From Hyphomicrobiales bacterium (GTDB lineage Bacteria > Pseudomonadota > Alphaproteobacteria > Rhizobiales > HXMU1428-3): a stretch of 18,504 bases of DNA. Position numbers and translations under genes: made by a program. The stretch is taken from NCBI GenBank assembly GCA_021775385.1, contig JAJFHW010000298.1:1-18504 (forward strand). The letters run 5' to 3'. Position 1 is the stretch's first letter. Each line of letters starts with the position of its first letter. The notes under the pieces were generated by a model. It had not been told where the DNA came from. It ran no database searches and saw nothing but the letters and a program-made list of their open reading frames with translations. Shown piece by piece: positions 9,068-15,738 of this stretch.

Positions 9068-10813
9068 ATGAGAAATAGGTGGGTGGTCATAGCCATCGTC
9101 TTATCGCTTTTGGTTATGAGTTTTATCTATTTTGCATCATATGGTTTTTTTAAAACGGAAGAACTGCAAAAACAAGAAGCGCGGGTATCGCTTTATAGAA
9201 GCACTCTTGTAAATGCTCTTGAGAGGTATCAATTTCTCCCCTTCATTTTATCAAAAGATCCTTTCGTAATCGCAGGAGCCACAGGTAAAGACTTGCCTGG
9301 CTTAAACCTTCGATTAAAAACATTCGTCAAACAGCAAGGCCTTGAAGCCATCTATTTAATGAACAAAGAGGGTGTAACTGTTGCCGCTTCAAATTTTGAT
9401 AAACCACTAAATTTCATCGGCCAGAATTATAGTTTTCGTCCCTATTTCAAAACCGCGCTAAGAGGCTCAGAGGGGACGTTTTTTGGCATTGGTGCGACAA
9501 CATCAAGGCCAGGGTATTTCATAGCAAGACCTGTTTACATAGAAAAAAAAGTCGCAGGGGTTATTGCCATAAAGTTAGGTCTGACTGGGTTGCAAGAAAC
9601 ATGGCGTAAGAGTGGTGAAAATGTATTTGTGTCAAACAAACAAGGGGTAATCGTACTCTCTTCAAATCAAGATATGCTATACAAAACTCTAAGTCCTCTA
9701 GATGATATTAGCCGTAATAAAATTATAGCAGGCAAGCAGTTTTTAAACCAGCCTCTATCCCCTTTAGGGTGGAAGGTTGGAGAAAAAAATGAAGTGATAC
9801 TCAATGGAAAACCATTCATGCATGTATCAGCCCCTATTTCTAAAAGGGCATGGCAGTTGCACTATCTGGCTACAGAAGACCGTGTGCAGGAACGAGCATC
9901 CTTTGTGGTAATAATTGGAGCGATTGCGGTATCTGTATGGATGACCATTTTTGCGACCATTCGTTCAAAACGAATTCGCATCGCCCTTGAAGCCTCACAA
10001 AAAGACAGGCAATCTCTACAAAAAGTAAATAAGAATCTCGAACAAGAGATCGTTGAACGACGTATGGCAGAAAAACGTTTGAAAAAAGCCCAAGAAGATC
10101 TCGCTCAGGCAAGTAAGTTAGCGGCACTTGGCCAATTATCAGCTTCAGTTACCCATGAATTAGGCCAACCAATCGCAGCAATGAGAAATTATCTGGTTGC
10201 CTATGAATTGGAGAATGAGGCTGAAGGCCCATCAATTACCATCGATCGTTTAAATGCGATCGTTTTGCGAATGGAAAATATTACAAAACAATTGAGGTTT
10301 TTCGCAGAACCTGGAAACAACCAATTAGAAGAGTTGGATTTAAGAAATATATTCAAGGGAGCACGTGACATTATCGCTCATAATATCACTTCATCCGGGG
10401 TCGATCTAAATGTTGAGATAAGTCAAAGCCCTATAATCATTGAGGGAAATAGATTGCGACTTGAGCAAGTGCTAATCAATTTAATCAGCAACAGCATCTT
10501 GGCAATGGAAAACAGTACAGTAAAAAAAATCGACATCTTGATGAAGGAAGAAAATGAAAACGCAATTCTAGCGGTAAAAGATACCGGCTGTGGTGTTGCA
10601 AATCGCACTATAGAAGAATTGCAGGAACCCTTTCACACTACGAGAGAATCCGGTCAAGGCATGGGGCTTGGACTGGCTATTTCTGCTGCGATTATAAAAG
10701 AACATCATGGTAAGATTGAAGTTCAGAATATAGAAGTCCAAAATAATGAAGAATGCGGAGCCTGTTTTTCTTTAATGTTACCAATTAAAAAGAAGAAAAA
10801 AATTCATGGATGA
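9068..10813 (+). CDS. dctB: DctB-like C4-dicarboxylate-type sensor histidine kinase
   Basis: A 581-residue membrane kinase. Helix 1 is at about 6-24 and helix 2 at about 278-298, enclosing a periplasmic double-Cache sensor with the DctB-like signature FIGQNYSFRPYF, GIGATTSRPGYFIARPV (about 116-156). A coiled coil (about 305-350) leads to the HisKA motif SVTHELGQP with His363. The ATPase domain has an N box (Asn472, Asn476), G1 DTGCGV (506-511), F box EPFHTT and G2 GQGMGLGL. A GAGGGGGG ribosome site precedes the ATG. Its last 8 bases overlap the regulator gene, so the pair is translationally coupled. In this family the kinase senses an extracellular organic acid and phosphorylates DctD. The TRAP genes downstream make it the likely sensor for their substrate. 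Confidence 0.92.
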   Translation: MRNRWVVIAIVLSLLVMSFIYFASYGFFKTEELQKQEARVSLYRSTLVNALERYQFLPFILSKDPFVIAGATGKDLPGLNLRLKTFVKQQGLEAIYLMNKEGVTVAASNFDKPLNFIGQNYSFRPYFKTALRGSEGTFFGIGATTSRPGYFIARPVYIEKKVAGVIAIKLGLTGLQETWRKSGENVFVSNKQGVIVLSSNQDMLYKTLSPLDDISRNKIIAGKQFLNQPLSPLGWKVGEKNEVILNGKPFMHVSAPISKRAWQLHYLATEDRVQERASFVVIIGAIAVSVWMTIFATIRSKRIRIALEASQKDRQSLQKVNKNLEQEIVERRMAEKRLKKAQEDLAQASKLAALGQLSASVTHELGQPIAAMRNYLVAYELENEAEGPSITIDRLNAIVLRMENITKQLRFFAEPGNNQLEELDLRNIFKGARDIIAHNITSSGVDLNVEISQSPIIIEGNRLRLEQVLINLISNSILAMENSTVKKIDILMKEENENAILAVKDTGCGVANRTIEELQEPFHTTRESGQGMGLGLAISAAIIKEHHGKIEVQNIEVQNNEECGACFSLMLPIKKKKKIHG

Positions 10814-12152
10814 GATTGTAGAAAAAAATTATCGTGTCATTGTTGTTGATGATGATAAAGAAATGCGCGCATCTCTCACTTACTTGCTCACCAAAGCAAA
10901 ATGGCAAGTGAAAAGTCTTGGACGTGCGGAAGATACAGAACGAGAATTAGAAAAATTTAATGCTGATGTTATTCTCAGCGATGTTCGTATGCCCGGAATG
11001 GATGGTCTTGAATTACTAAAGAAACTTAAAAAATTAAATGCCCCTCCAATGGTCTTAATCTCGGCTCATGGAGATATCCCACTTGCTGTTGAAGTTATGC
11101 AAAACGGAGCTTATTCATTTATTGAAAAGCCAACAGATCCACGCCGAATTTTAACAGTTTTAAGAAATGCTGCAGAGCATTATCGTCTTTCACAAGATAC
11201 AAAACGCTTAAAAGCCCAACTTGCTGATTTGTCAGGACTGGACAGAGCTCTCTTGGGTAAAACAGAAGTCATCAAAACTTTAAAAGAAGATATAGTCGAC
11301 CTCGCTAGAACAGATATTTCAGTTATGCTGTTAGGAGAAACAGGGACAGGAAAAGAACTTGTGGCAAGGGGAGTACATAATCTAAGCCCACGTGTAAACT
11401 CACCTTTCAAAGTATTAAATTGTGCGACCATACCAGTGCAGAATTTTGAAGAAATCATGTATGGAATAAAGGGCGAAAAAAAAGGTATTTTAGATAAAGT
11501 TCAGGCTGGAACCTTATTCCTGGATGACCTCAGTAATTGCCCGGTAGAACTCCAACCAAAAATTTTGCGGATTATTGAAGAAAAAGAATTCATTCCAATC
11601 GGAGGCGATGAACCACAAAAATTAGATGTACGGTATATCTCAGCGGTTGACGAAACGATCGATCAAAAAGTCAAAGAAGGGAAAATCCGTAAAGATTTAT
11701 ATTACCATCTAAACACTTTAATAATGAGGGTTCCGCCATTGCGAGATAGACGGGAAGATATCCCGCTTCTCTATGCCCATTATATGGAGCAATATGGCGA
11801 GCTATACGAAGTGCTCACACCTGAAATCACCACAGAAGACATGACGCTGCTCATGTCCCATGAATGGTTAGGCAATGTGAGAGAGTTAAGGAATGTAGCG
11901 GAACGAAGGATTTTAATGGCGCGGCGGGGCGGTGGTTCGGTCAACGAAGCTTTACAATTAGACACTAATCTGGATGATGTTCCAGGAACATTGAGAGAAG
12001 CAGTCGCAGCACTGGAGCGACAATTAATAGCCCAAGCTCTCAAAGCCAATCAAGGCCGAATGGAGGCTGTAGCTGAAGCGCTGGGTATTGGACGCAGAAC
12101 CTTAAACGAAAAAATCGTTAAACTCGGTCTAAATAAAAATGAAGTTTTATAG
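10806..12152 (+). CDS. dctD: DctD-like response regulator with degenerate sigma-54 (AAA+) domain
   Basis: A 448-residue protein with a receiver (about 8-125: Asp15-17, phospho-acceptor Asp59 in SDVRMPGMDG, Ser86, Lys108), an AAA+ domain (about 145-375) and a Fis-type helix-turn-helix (about 403-442). Walker A is intact (GETGTGKE, 177-184). The GAFTGA loop that touches sigma-54 is absent: EEIMYGIKGEKKGILDKVQ leads directly into GTLFLDD, about 8 residues shorter than normal. Walker B ends Asp240-Asp241 instead of Asp-Glu; the sensor I region reads SAVDET where AATNRD is usual; the second arginine of the FRxDLYYRLN motif is His301. DNA binding and phosphorylation should survive, but sigma-54 activation should not. 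It may act with sigma-70, as GAFTGA-less NtrC of Rhodobacter capsulatus does. It overlaps dctB by 8 bases. Confidence 0.9.
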   Translation: MDEIVEKNYRVIVVDDDKEMRASLTYLLTKAKWQVKSLGRAEDTERELEKFNADVILSDVRMPGMDGLELLKKLKKLNAPPMVLISAHGDIPLAVEVMQNGAYSFIEKPTDPRRILTVLRNAAEHYRLSQDTKRLKAQLADLSGLDRALLGKTEVIKTLKEDIVDLARTDISVMLLGETGTGKELVARGVHNLSPRVNSPFKVLNCATIPVQNFEEIMYGIKGEKKGILDKVQAGTLFLDDLSNCPVELQPKILRIIEEKEFIPIGGDEPQKLDVRYISAVDETIDQKVKEGKIRKDLYYHLNTLIMRVPPLRDRREDIPLLYAHYMEQYGELYEVLTPEITTEDMTLLMSHEWLGNVRELRNVAERRILMARRGGGSVNEALQLDTNLDDVPGTLREAVAALERQLIAQALKANQGRMEAVAEALGIGRRTLNEKIVKLGLNKNEVL

Positions 12153-12154
12153 CG

Positions 12155-12318
12155 CGGTTGCTGGTGGGCAACTAAAGCTCCACTAAGAAAGCGCGATTAC
12201 TTCGTGCCGGTTGCTGGTGGGCAACTAAAGCGCCACTAAGAAAGCGCGGTTGCTTCGTGCCGGTTGCTAGTGGGCAACTGAAGGCACACTAAAAAGTCAA
12301 CTAAAGCGCCACTAAGAA
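12155..12318. repeat. 53-base tandem repeats after dctD
   Basis: Three copies start at 12155, 12208 and 12261, a spacing of exactly 53 bases. The first two differ at about 3 of 53 positions. The third matches over its first 22 bases or so, then degenerates and is followed by a partial copy (12298-12318, CAACTAAAGCGCCACTAAG and following bases). Every full copy keeps the dyad GTTGC-N6-GCAAC (12157-12172, 12210-12225, 12263-12278). The array starts just after the dctD stop and ends about 195 bases before dctP. It could be repeated protein sites for dctP control, a structured 3' leader of the dctBD message, or an expanded repeat with no role. There are no distinct spacers, so it is not CRISPR. 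Confidence 0.85.
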
Positions 12319-12358
12319 TACCTCCCCCTCCTCCTCGGAGGCCTGCTACACTAGCAAC
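12263..12358 (+). other. Predicted RNA stem closing over the end of the repeat array
   Basis: GTTGCTAGTG (12263-12272, third repeat copy) is perfectly complementary to CACTAGCAAC (12349-12358). Between them lies a small hairpin, CCTCCTCGGAGG (12330-12341). This 10-base pairing competes with the local GTTGC/GCAAC dyad of the same copy, so two alternative folds are possible in a transcript reading through from dctD. Whether they are used is unknown. Confidence 0.4.
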
Positions 12359-12382
12359 AGAATAGCCGTGAGAGAAAACAAG

Positions 12383-12402
12383 CTCTGCGGAAATCCGCAG
12401 AG
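12383..12402. promoter_or_regulatory. Perfect 20-base palindrome upstream of dctP (candidate DctD binding site)
   Basis: CTCTGCGGAAATCCGCAGAG is a perfect inverted repeat centred about 121 bases before the dctP ATG. From memory, DctD upstream activating sites in rhizobia have a similar TGCGGA/TCCGCA core; this should be checked against published sites. The spot suits an upstream activator site for the DctD-like regulator encoded just before it. As RNA it would form an 8-pair hairpin with an AAAT loop, but no T-run follows, so a terminator role is less likely. Confidence 0.55.
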
Positions 12403-12436
12403 AAAGGTAAAATTATACGCAATTTTCTTCATAGAC

Positions 12437-12478
12437 ATGTCTTCATAAATGTCTTTATCATGTGGACCAAAGTACAAT
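12437..12478 (+). promoter_or_regulatory. Probable dctP promoter region
   Basis: Between the palindrome and dctP lie a 10-base palindrome AGACATGTCT (12433-12442), two direct copies of ATGTCTT (12437-12443, 12449-12455) and a TACAAT (12473-12478) that could serve as a sigma-70 -10. The -35 position is poor, as expected for an activator-dependent promoter. I find no TGGCAC-N5-TTGC sigma-54 promoter in 12403-12513. The -10 call is tentative. Confidence 0.3.
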
Positions 12479-12513: not shown

Positions 12514-13527
12514 ATGAAAAGATCAATTATGAAGACGGTTGTAGCTGGTGCAATAACGTGTGCATTCGTTGCAGAAGCTGCGGCAACTGAATGGAATGTG
12601 TCACTCTGGGGTAAAAGAAGAGCGTTTACCGAGCATGTTGAAAAATTAGCAGAGCTAGTTGAAAAGAAAACAGACGGTAAATTTAAACTAAAAATTTCCT
12701 ATGGCGGTCTTTCTAAAAATAAAGAAAATTTGGATGGCATCTCTATCGGTGCATTTGAAATGGCGCAGTTCTGTGCCGGATATCACGCAGATAAAAACCC
12801 ATCTATAACAGTTCTCGAGTTGCCTTTCTTAGGCGTTAAATCACTCGAACAAGAAGTGAAAATTTCAAAGGCAGTATATAATCACCCAGCTGTAAAAAAA
12901 GACTTGGCCAGATGGAGTGCAACTCTTCTTATGCCATCTCCTTTGCCTCAATATAATGTTTTAGGTGTTGGAAAAAAACCTGGCGGTCTTGCAGATTTCA
13001 AGGGCTTAACAGTGCGCGCAACCGGTGGTATTGGCCGTGCGATGAAAGCCGTTGGTGCTGTCCCAACTTCTATGTCAGCATCTGAAGTTCGCCAGGCATT
13101 GGACAGCGGTGTTATTAAAGCCGTTGCATTCGCCCCTCATGCTCACATGGCATTTGGAACAGTCGAAAAAGGCAAATGGTGGACAACCAATCTTAACCCA
13201 GGCACCGTGAACTGCCCTGTTGTTGTAAACACTGATGCGTTGAATAAGCTAAACAAATCAGAAAAAGAAGCACTTCTAGGGTCTGTCGATGAAGCTCTTG
13301 ATCATTATGTAACCACATACAACAAAAAAACGATGGCTGCATGGGGACCTAAATTAGAGAGTAAAAAAATCGAGAAAGTTACATTCAGCGACGATGCATT
13401 AGCAGCCTTTAAGAAAAAGGTAGCGGCACCAGCAGCAAATGCCTGGATTGAACAAAACAAAAAACGCGGACTACCAGCAAAGGAATTATATGATCTGGTA
13501 GTAAGTGAAATTAAAAAAACGAACTAA
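12514..13527 (+). CDS. dctP: TRAP transporter periplasmic substrate-binding protein (DctP family)
   Basis: A 337-residue exported protein with a signal peptide (about 1-24, ending EAAA before TEWNVS). The TRAP receptor fold is indicated by the FCAGYHADKNPSITVLELPFL region (about 87-106), the GLTVRATGGIGRAMKAVGAVP region with Arg168 at the position that usually binds the substrate carboxylate, and the SASEVRQALDSGVIKAVAF region (188-206). GGGAGG at 12502-12507 is a strong ribosome site 6 bases before the ATG; Met6 is a less likely start. It delivers an organic acid, probably a carboxylate, to DctQM. The DctB-like sensor upstream suggests a C4-dicarboxylate-like ligand, but the receptor does not look like classical DctP and its substrate cannot be read directly. 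Confidence 0.93.
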   Translation: MKRSIMKTVVAGAITCAFVAEAAATEWNVSLWGKRRAFTEHVEKLAELVEKKTDGKFKLKISYGGLSKNKENLDGISIGAFEMAQFCAGYHADKNPSITVLELPFLGVKSLEQEVKISKAVYNHPAVKKDLARWSATLLMPSPLPQYNVLGVGKKPGGLADFKGLTVRATGGIGRAMKAVGAVPTSMSASEVRQALDSGVIKAVAFAPHAHMAFGTVEKGKWWTTNLNPGTVNCPVVVNTDALNKLNKSEKEALLGSVDEALDHYVTTYNKKTMAAWGPKLESKKIEKVTFSDDALAAFKKKVAAPAANAWIEQNKKRGLPAKELYDLVVSEIKKTN

Positions 13528-13593: not shown

Positions 13594-13619
13594 ACTCTTT
13601 ATGTTTGGGGGAGAGACAA

Positions 13620-14246
13620 ATGGCAGCAACTGGATCAGTACGAACTGATGGAACTTTGCTGAGTAGGCTTGATCAGTTTCTTTATAAAATTGAAACAGTA
13701 TTTTGTCTCATTGGTGGACTAGCTGTTTTTTCTCTGATGATCCTCGCAGTTATAAGTGTAACTGGGCGGCATTTATTCAATCAACCATTATCAGGTTATG
13801 TCGATTGGATCGAAATTATCATGCCCGTGATTGCGTTCTTAGGAATTTCTTTTTCTCAAAGGTTGGGTGGCCATATCCGTATGGACATCCTGATTATGAA
13901 TTTAAAAGGACGTCCATTGTGGATCGTAGAACTCATCTCATCAATCATAATTCTTATATTAATTTTGTTACTGCTTTGGGGCAGTTGGGCGCATTTCCTG
14001 CGCTCCTTTGATATGTCTGCTCCTTTATGGAGTAGAGATTCAAGTGTTGATATCGGGCTGCCTATCTGGCCAGCTAAACTTATTGTGCCTCTTGCATTTT
14101 TCATTCTGGTGATGAGACTGGTTTTACAAATTTGGGGATATGCTCGCGCTATATACGAAGGTTCGGATGAGCCCGTTGCGGTACCTCTACCTGAGGGCGC
14201 TGCCGAATTGGCAGCAGCAGAAGCAAAAATAGTCTCAGAAAAATAA
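13620..14246 (+). CDS. dctQ: TRAP transporter small membrane subunit (DctQ family)
   Basis: This 208-residue protein has four predicted membrane helices (about 26-50, 62-80, 101-122 and 147-168, numbered from the ATG) and family features GRHLFNQPLSGYVDWIEI and SQRLGGHIRMDILI. The ATG at 13620 follows GGGGGAGAG by about 4 bases and is preferred to an in-frame TTG at 13605 that lies within that ribosome site. DctQ pairs with DctM to form the sodium-coupled permease fed by the periplasmic receptor. The C-terminal tail is Ala/Glu-rich and cytoplasmic. It lies between dctP and dctM in the usual P-Q-M order. Confidence 0.93.
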   Translation: MAATGSVRTDGTLLSRLDQFLYKIETVFCLIGGLAVFSLMILAVISVTGRHLFNQPLSGYVDWIEIIMPVIAFLGISFSQRLGGHIRMDILIMNLKGRPLWIVELISSIIILILILLLLWGSWAHFLRSFDMSAPLWSRDSSVDIGLPIWPAKLIVPLAFFILVMRLVLQIWGYARAIYEGSDEPVAVPLPEGAAELAAAEAKIVSEK

Positions 14247-14328: not shown

Positions 14329-15738
14329 ATGGATTCAATTGAAATCGGCCTATTTGTATCAGCTGGATTATTGCTCATGGTCCTCATCGGGGTGAGGGTG
14401 GCGTTTGCAGCAGCACTGTCTGGCCTCATCGGGTTGGTATGGATCTTCTGGGCAAAAAAAGGGTATGCTGGAGATGAATTTACCTGGGCTCTTACCGTTG
14501 CTACAAAAATTGCAGGACAAGTGCCGCACTCTAAAATTTCGTCGCAAGCCCTCTCCCTCATCCCTACATTCATTCTCATAGGGTATCTAGCTTACTACGC
14601 AGGCCTCACAAAAGCATTGTTTGAAGCGGCAAAACGTTGGATCGGCTGGCTCCCTGGCGGTTTGGCAGTCTCCACTGTGTTTTCAACGGCCGGTTTTGCT
14701 GCTGTATCAGGAGCATCTGTTGCAACATCCGCTGTGTTTGCAAGGGTTGCCATTCCTGAAATGCTTGCGCTTGGGTATGACAAACGCTTTGCAGCTGGTG
14801 TAGTGGCAGCAGCAGGGACCTTGGCCTCGCTTATCCCACCATCTGCAATTCTTGTGATCTACGCAATTATTGTTGAGCAAAATGTGGGAGCACTACTTTT
14901 AGCCGGGTTTTTACCAGGACTATTCTCAGCTGTTTTATATGGTGGCTTAGTCGTTTGCTTGGCTATGATGTTTAAAGATTTTGGCCCGCCTGTAAAAGGG
15001 TTTACATGGAGACAAAGATTTGAAGCTCTACCAGGGGCACTCCCTATTTTGTTTGTCGTCACCATCATCATCTTCTTTATTTACAATCCGTTTGGTGGAG
15101 ATGCCTGGGGCACACCAACAGAGGGCGGAGCGCTTGGTGCATTTGTTGTTTTTGTTATGGCTCTTTATAAGGGCATGCGATGGCCTCAATTAAAAGAGAG
15201 CTTGCTTGAAACAGCCAAGTTAACAGTCATGATCTTTTCAATCATTTGGGGAGTGTTGATTTACGTCCGCTTTTTAGGGTTTGCTGATTTGCCGGGCGTT
15301 TTTTCTGACTGGGTTTCATCACTAGATCAAAGTCCACTCCTAACATTTGTTTTGATCCTCTGTGCTTATGCAGTCTTAGGCATGTTTATGGATGCAATCG
15401 GAATGATGTTATTGACATTACCCGTCGTCTTCCCTGCAGTCATCGCTTTAAATGGTGGAGTTGATGTAACAGCGGCGAATAGTGCCTTTGGTATGGATAG
15501 CGTCAGTTGCGCTATATGGTTTGGAATTATCGTGGTGAAAATGGCGGAACTCTGTTTAATTACCCCGCCCATTGGATTAAACTGTTTTGTCGTAGCTGGT
15601 GTTTGTCCGCAAGTCACCGTACAAGATGTCTTTCGTGGCTCAGCCCCCTTCTTCATTGCTGACGCCCTAACAATTGCGGGCTTAATCGCATTTCCGCAAA
15701 TTGTGTTGTTCTTACCAAACCTTCTTTTAAGCGGTTGA
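14329..15738 (+). CDS. dctM: TRAP transporter large permease subunit (DctM family)
   Basis: The 469-residue protein is hydrophobic throughout, with about 12 membrane helices. Family regions include STAGFAAVSGASVATSAVFA near 123-142, an internal repeat ending ASLIPPSAILVIYAIIVEQN, and ILCAYAVLGMFMDAIGMMLLTLPVVFP with the matching second-half motif MAELCLITPPIGLNCFVVAGV. These two pseudo-repeats form the transport core. It follows dctQ after an 82-base gap containing a weak GTGAAA/TTTCAC dyad (14273-14278, 14297-14302) and ends at a strong terminator. It would import the DctP ligand with sodium, as in characterised TRAP systems. The length is slightly above the usual 425-435 residues, owing partly to extra sequence after the first helix (AKKGYAGDEFTWA). 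Confidence 0.95.
   Translation: MDSIEIGLFVSAGLLLMVLIGVRVAFAAALSGLIGLVWIFWAKKGYAGDEFTWALTVATKIAGQVPHSKISSQALSLIPTFILIGYLAYYAGLTKALFEAAKRWIGWLPGGLAVSTVFSTAGFAAVSGASVATSAVFARVAIPEMLALGYDKRFAAGVVAAAGTLASLIPPSAILVIYAIIVEQNVGALLLAGFLPGLFSAVLYGGLVVCLAMMFKDFGPPVKGFTWRQRFEALPGALPILFVVTIIIFFIYNPFGGDAWGTPTEGGALGAFVVFVMALYKGMRWPQLKESLLETAKLTVMIFSIIWGVLIYVRFLGFADLPGVFSDWVSSLDQSPLLTFVLILCAYAVLGMFMDAIGMMLLTLPVVFPAVIALNGGVDVTAANSAFGMDSVSCAIWFGIIVVKMAELCLITPPIGLNCFVVAGVCPQVTVQDVFRGSAPFFIADALTIAGLIAFPQIVLFLPNLLLSG

Follow-up and report, generated by a model that had tools for sequence, protein, structure and literature searches.

A clade of DctD-like regulators without the GAFTGA loop, predicted to activate TRAP transporter operons independently of sigma-54

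In this work, we present a comparative analysis of a DctD-like response regulator and of the transporter operon downstream of it, both located on an 18,504-nucleotide stretch of DNA from a Hyphomicrobiales bacterium (the window). The regulator and its close relatives lack the GAFTGA loop, the part of the protein which contacts sigma-54. This GAFTGA-less DctD is very probably a sigma-54-independent activator, predicted to bind at about -75 and -42 of the dctP promoter and to contact sigma-70 polymerase there, with no remote enhancer involved. The genes concerned are the following:

9068..10813, + strand, DctB-like sensor histidine kinase (dCache_1, HATPase_c), the regulator's partner (ORF, Pfam)
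10806..12152, + strand, GAFTGA-less DctD-like response regulator, 448 aa (ORF, Pfam, alignment)
12514..13527, + strand, dctP, TRAP solute-binding protein
13605..14246, + strand, dctQ, TRAP small permease, start codon uncertain
14329..15738, + strand, dctM, TRAP large permease

A DctB-like kinase homologue lies immediately 5' of the regulator in all 57 family loci, collected from genomes and plasmids. In the window the kinase and regulator genes share 8 bases (10806-10813), which suggests translational coupling. Directly 3' of the dctD stop codon there is a tandem array (12155-12296, period 53, 2.7 copies), because of which the dctD-dctP gap reaches 361 bp, compared to 100-150 bp in 35 of the 42 loci with dctP downstream. 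DctP relatives of solved structure are distant (best E 2e-15).

The receiver, Sigma54_activat, AAA lid and HTH_8 domains of the regulator all exceed Pfam cut-offs. Its AAA+ landmarks are:

11334..11357, + strand, Walker A GETGTGKE, residues 177-184, intact (K183 in 57/57 family loci)
11445..11513, + strand, loop L1 segment, residues 214-236, shortened by 8 (alignment with GAFTGA-type DctD)
11514..11528, + strand, Walker B LFLDD, residues 237-241, with D for E at the second acidic position
11640..11654, + strand, sensor I region SAVDE, with Asp282 where Asn is usual
11688..11711, + strand, arginine-finger segment RKDLYYHL, with R295 retained and R301 replaced by His

Segment 214-236 counts 23 residues in the window protein vs 31 in all 11 loop-bearing comparators (L001, L056, L137-L145), which carry GAFTGA or a variant, e.g. 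GSFTGA, GAFPGA or GAFTNA; the gap is exactly 8 residues and falls at the sigma-54-contacting loop. A sequence-only reading of the same DNA had described a DctD-like regulator about 8 residues shorter, without this loop, with DD in Walker B, SAVDE(T) in sensor I and His301, and with intact Walker A, receiver and Fis-type domains. The alignment agrees with this description throughout, K183 as well as receiver D59 and K108 being present. Neither the alignment nor the structure prediction, both of which that reading had proposed as checks, restored a GAFTGA-like loop. The AlphaFold model (60 family sequences, mean pLDDT 85, pTM 0.56) is that of an ordinary receiver-AAA+-Fis protein, in which helix 211-219 is followed by a short connection, a loop-sized insertion being absent. 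PspF and NtrC1 can be superposed on its AAA+ domain at ~2.5 Å, and over the whole length Brucella NtrX (5m7o) is the best match in the PDB, the domain arrangement being unreliable at pTM 0.56.

The deletion is shared far beyond the window. A protein search yielded 7,997 matches from 7,999 scored candidates, and among the best 120, window protein included, none has a GAFTGA-like motif; the motif is also absent from the 57 family loci. A recent loss in the window gene alone is ruled out, since 0/120 of these best homologues retain the loop. Conservation of the deletion among homologues, which the sequence-only reading had left as a question, is thus answered in the affirmative. Its picture of several losses in one gene holds for Walker B, sensor I and His301, which are lineage-specific, and fails for the loop, which is missing clade-wide. 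Of the family loci, 44 have a segment of 23 residues and one has a segment of 28; the other 12, at 12-19 residues, have undergone further deletions. In L128-L134, L136, L122, L126 and L135 the segment is reduced to 12-14 residues, a far bigger deletion in the same place.

A tree of 105 proteins, built by a quick method with several long branches and after dropping L027, L004 and L005, unites 71 rows without the loop in a single clade (SH-aLRT 99). Its sister is L056 (G021:C28), which keeps GSFTGA and is 47-48% identical to the window protein; the L056 contig stops 150 bp after the gene. Clade and GSFTGA sister group with ten further GAFTGA-type rows (deeper support 86-92), whose DctD name is itself inferred. 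Rows resembling NtrX, named likewise by inference, are also loop-less; they form a separate group (support 100) and differ from the DctD clade in loop pattern and sensor I. With the 71-row clade lying among GAFTGA-type DctDs and the NtrX-like rows apart, the simplest account would be that the loop was lost once, in a DctD ancestor at the base of this large clade. The window protein groups with GAFTGA-type DctDs and not with NtrC or NtrX, a DctB-like kinase adjoins it, and its target is a transporter. Judged from these marks it is a DctD by descent, one that lacks the defining features of a sigma-54 activator, including the intact ATPase residues of a sigma-54-dependent bEBP (it has D241, D282 and H301).

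A search for relatives in the genome contigs gave one locus, 36% identical, and a class-wide search (4 candidates scored per genome) found a member in at least 5 other genomes among 384. In the order of G062, 54 of 292 genomes have a member at E <= 1e-110 (5 candidates scored per genome). We take this order to be Rhodobacterales because its G669 (L103) neighbours Ruegeria conchae L060 in the tree. Surroundings were read for 47 of the 54 order members, leaving out G446, G448, G465, G499, G543, G660 and G708.

Catalytic residues of the AAA+ domain follow a different pattern from the loop. Across the 57 family loci, E241 is found in 55 (the exceptions being D in the window and G in one locus), N282 in 52 and R301 in 56, the window departing at all three positions, while R295, K183, D240, R359 (sensor II), and receiver D59 and K108 are present in 57/57. 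DD and Asp282 are common to the window protein and P0002-P0005 (84-98% identical), and His301, among the rows compared, to the window protein and P0002 only; all three departures (Walker B, sensor I, His301) are particular to the window's lineage. As far as sequences tell, the catalytic residues are retained across most of the clade and are eroding in few branches; with E in 55/57, N in 52/57 and the second arginine finger in 56/57, ATP hydrolysis may be relevant in the clade. In L135, Gly replaces the Walker B Glu (LFLDG); this gene is possibly unusual, having one stop codon inside the aligned match, and only the portion after the last stop entered the comparison.

The hosts bear directly on the need for sigma-54. 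Full-length rpoN is missing in 48 of the 54 regulator-bearing genomes of the inferred Rhodobacterales, all 54 of them 99-100% complete; 41 of the 48 have no match at all and 7 have a match over 26-29 positions only, below 21 bits. The remaining six possess full-length rpoN, two of them under the curated cut-off. The clade therefore cannot need sigma-54 in those 48 hosts. In the whole order sample rpoN occurs in 68/292 genomes and is uncommon there regardless of the regulator, the association of regulator with rpoN absence being weak (Fisher 0.02, 292 genomes); the weight of the argument lies in the 48 hosts having the system without sigma-54, rather than in the association. Outside the order, rpoN is present in 6/6 clade hosts tested (G000, G007, G024, G145, G419, G416), including the window's own genome, which is 78.8% complete, so that sigma-54 is available there.

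Promoters of the -24/-12 type were sought as TGGCAC-N5-TTGC with at most 3 mismatches. Between dctD and dctP the + strand has a single match, at 12352, without the key GG, which agrees with the earlier claim that no such promoter precedes dctP. The minus strand of this interval has five matches; the best (12221-12235, TGGCGCTTTAGTTGC, 1 mismatch) lies within the tandem array, faces away from dctP and is probably due to chance. Over the whole window such matches do not exceed chance (138 vs 131 expected), and among clade promoters, with GG and GC required, 1/54 reaches at least 8/10 matches vs 2.3% in shuffles. The GAFTGA-type locus L143 has a perfect TGGCACGGCGATTGC, with 83 bp from operator-core centre to the -24 GG, which places that operator at about -107. 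Another GAFTGA-type locus, L140, carries two perfect -24/-12 sequences (9328-9342 and 10536-10550), the first of them 67 bp past the end of its DctD gene and likely a sigma-54 target.

The dctD-dctP interval of the window contains the following elements:

12383..12402, + strand, predicted strong operator IR1, CTCTGCGGAAATCCGCAGAG, centre about -75.5 (sequence)
12418..12433, + strand, predicted weak operator O2, in IR1 orientation, 33 bp 3' of IR1, centre about -42.5
12432..12437, + strand, -35-like TAGACA of the dctP promoter (promoter scan)
12456..12461, + strand, -10-like TATCAT, spacer 18 bp (promoter scan)

IR1 consists of perfect 9-bp arms, CTCTGCGGA-AA-TCCGCAGAG, and is the sole site in its own assembled genome when up to 1 mismatch is allowed. 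In the clade a palindrome CTGCGGA-NN-TCCGCAG is situated between dctD and the TRAP operon. It is found locally in 54 of the 57 family loci, 33 of them exact and 17/3/1 with 1/2/3 mismatches over 14 positions, and is locally absent in L049 (G145), L114 (G618) and L054 (G007). Genomes G145 and G618 have an exact palindrome before dctPQM on another contig, followed by a TTTCTTCAT box. The third locus, from the window's genus (67-70% identical), is a real exception with no site within 1 mismatch genome-wide; the L054 regulator is followed by a gene that looks GntR-like by eye and by another TRAP operon. The site stays at the transporter promoter even with a distance of 1.2-2.7 kb from dctD to dctP (L092, L093, L100, L126), with dctPQM divergent (L055), and with the dctP promoter on other contigs (L155, L156). 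The site thus travels with dctPQM when the operon is elsewhere. In L123, L125 and L127 a second operator precedes the kinase gene, ~1.8 kb 5' of where the regulator starts, which suggests autoregulation in that branch.

Throughout the order the exact site accompanies the regulator, being found once each in 33/54 regulator-positive vs 7/238 regulator-negative genomes (Fisher 1e-22). Twenty-nine of these 33 sites are no more than 60 bp away from the regulator match; of the remaining 4, two are off at the transporter (G437 by 1.2 kb, G644 by 2.2 kb), one is before the kinase gene (G565) and one on another contig (G618). Around the 7 regulator-negative sites (~8 kb) there were no homologues of D, P, Q or M; one of these sites has a 24%-identical kinase-like match nearby. 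The site counts in the window's own genome and in the order genomes rule out a chance palindrome. The 14-base core of the window operator is identical to that of the R. meliloti DctD-binding sequence TGTGCGgaaatCCGCACA, as quoted in the V. vulnificus DctD paper PMC11077940 (its ref 15, Scholl and Nixon 1996). Going by this identity, the palindrome is the classical DctD operator. The same core is found at L143, the only one of nine GAFTGA-type comparators with context (L137-L145) with a copy that differs from the R. meliloti pattern at no more than 2 positions.

The window promoter was read by the scan as TAGACA-18-TATCAT (10/12 matches; 0.4 promoter-like sites expected by chance); both hexamers are weak matches, and O2 overlaps the -35 element. 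In the promoter set of 54 loci (L049, L054 and L114 dropped), the distance from the palindrome centre to the start of the TTTCTTCAT box is 31-33 bp in 50 and exactly 32 bp in 42, with four outliers. The box forms the right-hand portion of a second and degenerate operator copy, oriented alike and 33 bp downstream: in an operator-matrix scan shift 33 beats all other shifts from 17 to 84 (z 4.3), the copy being weak, with a mean matrix score of -18.8 and shift 33 the single best in 18/54 loci only. In L105 and L110-L113 the left half of the second copy is nearly perfect (by eye). The box is followed by a -35-like hexamer, in many loci TAGGCA, and then, mostly after a spacer of 17 bp, by a -10-like hexamer, with A at 2, T at 3, A at 4 and T at 6 in 32, 33, 31 and 32 of 54. 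From palindrome centre to -10 there are 63 bp in both the usual clade layout (40+6+17) and the window (39+6+18). Counted from the -10, with the start site predicted at 12468, the operator centres would fall at about -75.5 and -42.5.

The targets are mostly of one kind. A homologue of the window DctP lies downstream in 42/57 family loci and divergent in one more, the M protein that goes with it being 75-84% identical. A subset of the loci has as target a solute-binding protein with a fused permease of ~700-740 aa, recognized by sequence in L051, L094, L110 and L111 and by gene size only in L112, L119, L123, L125 and L127. By Pfam, the L110 binding protein is NMT1-like and its permease of DctM type, a pair which we take to be a TAXI-type TRAP. 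Both kinds of targets have the same promoter layout within the promoter set.

In Ruegeria pomeroyi DSS-3 the gene order is kinase, regulator, P, Q, M, likewise in three more plasmid records. Published transposon mutants of this strain (PMC10041152) give fitness values (log2) in three co-cultures of -0.27/-0.25/-0.22 for SPOA0237 (dctD-2), -0.18/-0.2/-0.18 for SPOA0238 (dctP) and -0.14/-0.14/-0.14 for SPOA0240 (dctM); we equate SPOA0237 with SPO_RS21020 via gene order and name, and polar effects of the insertions are possible. The dctD-2 mutants thus share the negative fitness of the dctP and dctM mutants, which is the direction an activator would give. We take these values to favour activation over repression, the effects being small (log2 -0.14 to -0.27).

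Two other modes of control have to be weighed against activation through sigma-70. The regulator could be a repressor that, bound on the operator over the -35, blocks polymerase until a signal arrives. O2 does overlap the -35, a position repressors also take, and Caulobacter NtrC, GAFTGA-less as well, is reported to repress some sigma-70 promoters (PMC10274813); however, loss of fitness is common to the regulator and transporter mutants of R. pomeroyi (PMC10041152; with the same proviso on polar effects), and the promoter elements are weak, as at activator-dependent promoters, which leaves repression improbable. In rpoN-bearing hosts like the window's the protein might still be a sigma-54 activator, making use of a short alternative loop. 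Such hosts include its own genome and five other clade hosts tested outside the order, and Walker A, R295 and the sensor II Arg are intact. This reading is very hard to maintain, as the window has no good + strand -24/-12 before dctP and the 54 clade promoters are not above shuffles, whereas GAFTGA-type L143 does show a perfect one, 83 bp from the same operator core; moreover, the same promoter layout is found in rpoN-less genomes. The sequence-only reading had suggested a regulator that no longer remodels sigma-54 holoenzyme and works by sigma-70 contact or by repression. Its sigma-70 branch now appears strongly supported by the 48/54 rpoN-lacking hosts and the near-constant distance of the operator from the -35/-10, and its repression branch is disfavoured by the fitness loss which dctD-2 mutants share with dctP and dctM mutants (PMC10041152).

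The two further alternatives, each of them most unlikely, concern the nature of the DNA itself. The palindrome might be no operator, its arms forming an RNA hairpin or terminator after dctD. The window does have a stable fold (z -3.6, 12370-12440), the palindrome begins less than 30 bp from the dctD stop in most family loci, its outer pairs vary symmetrically (T-A in 6/54, G-C in 5/54), as a palindromic protein site would also allow, and at least 5 T are among the 10 bases after it in 5/54 loci. Set against this, the window's terminator-like match is on the minus strand only, 40/54 loci have at most 2 T in the following 10 bases, the five inner pairs are nearly invariant with no compensatory change, the core is that of the published DctD site (PMC11077940), and the site keeps to the dctP promoter when this is distant (L092, L093, L100, L126), divergent (L055) or on other contigs (L155, L156). 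A terminator hairpin in particular is rejected on the grounds that the site moves with the transporter, that few T follow it and that the terminator-like match is confined to the minus strand. Decay of the window copy into a pseudogene would explain the extra catalytic changes DD, D282 and H301 of its lineage; it is at odds with a 448-codon frame open throughout, domains above cut-off, a perfect operator, and DD and Asp282 held in common with P0002-P0005, which are 84-98% identical.

For the sigma-54-independent activator, the preferred reading, we propose the following course of events. An alphaproteobacterial DctD clade would have dropped loop L1 (GAFTGA), most simply once, and so have become independent of sigma-54. 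The DctB-like kinase presumably phosphorylates the regulator, which would occupy the DctD palindrome at about -75 jointly, and perhaps cooperatively, with the weaker copy at about -42 over the -35. From there it would recruit or position the housekeeping polymerase through direct contact and turn dctPQM on. By analogy with R. capsulatus NtrC, the AAA+ domain would most likely serve ATP-dependent assembly rather than polymerase remodelling, and in the window lineage its catalytic residues seem to be eroding. Taken jointly, these features could be read as a switch, a tentative reading to which we incline a little less than to its opposite: one loop deletion; a strong and a weak operator, both retained yet brought in from enhancer distance (about -107, as in L143) to lie at -75/-42 of a sigma-70 promoter; and a mostly conserved ATPase which, without L1, assembles on or acts on the housekeeping polymerase and is dispensed with in side branches (the window lineage, L135). 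If true, it would record a change from remote-enhancer to promoter-proximal control.

Compared to DctD of Rhizobium/Sinorhizobium meliloti and Vibrio (a group I bEBP with DctB), the clade has the same domain order, a DctB-like kinase, a transport target and the operator core TGCGGAAATCCGCA, as far as these systems are described in the source cited above. Per the reference entry in PMC11077940, the title of Ledebur and Nixon 1992 speaks of tandem sites that differ in affinity. In contrast to these DctDs, the clade is without the GAFTGA loop and without a -24/-12 promoter, drives TRAP and not DctA, and 48/54 of its hosts in one order are without full-length rpoN. Its sites lie at about -75/-42 vs -125 to -451 for the V. 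vulnificus DctD sites given in PMC11077940.

Loop-less relatives are found in other branches. NtrX (Brucella abortus 5m7n-5m7p) is the best whole-length structural match and its aligned chain has no GAFTGA; unlike the clade, NtrX-like rows stand separately in the tree (100), with another loop pattern and sensor I. TyrR, DhaR, HupR and VpsR have signal domains or targets that differ from those of the DctD clade. The first three are reported as sigma-70 dependent, and VpsR is argued to be so, each with a changed GAFTGA (PMC3162934). Rhodobacter capsulatus NtrC, described in PMC10274813 as having the loop deleted, using sigma-70 polymerase and requiring ATP binding but not hydrolysis, resembles the clade in the deletion and differs in serving nitrogen control and in being NtrC rather than DctD. 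Its deletion we infer to be of separate origin, the tree being one without R. capsulatus NtrC. Caulobacter NtrC, with an eight-residue deletion over GAFTGA, controls sigma-70 promoters of many genes with both signs, its Walker A and B residues being required (PMC10274813); in the DctD clade, by contrast, a genome with an exact site has just one. On the published accounts cited here, sigma-70-acting bEBP relatives with defective GAFTGA (TyrR, DhaR, HupR, R. capsulatus and Caulobacter NtrC) are already established. No earlier report of a GAFTGA-less DctD was found in the open-licence literature, judged by the titles and starts of abstracts among the matches listed. What looks new is the loop-less DctD clade, its operator use, and the DctD site pair shifted from enhancer distance to -75/-42.

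The clade offers a natural series for the change from a sigma-54 to a sigma-70 activator, comprising a loop-bearing sister, loop-less members, others in which more of the segment is deleted and one lacking the Walker B Glu; nearly every loop-less member retains the same operator. For the TRAP uptake operons of marine alphaproteobacteria the clade further gives a specific signature made up of operator and promoter, and dctD-2 is reported to matter for fitness in diatom co-cultures (PMC10041152). Four plasmid-borne members are annotated as sigma-54 dependent regulators, a misleading name for this clade. One plasmid member, L059 (CP049031.1, plasmid pSC52_3), has an annotated APH(6) gene in its neighbourhood, at a distance of a few kb, with IS1247-type elements on either side of that gene.
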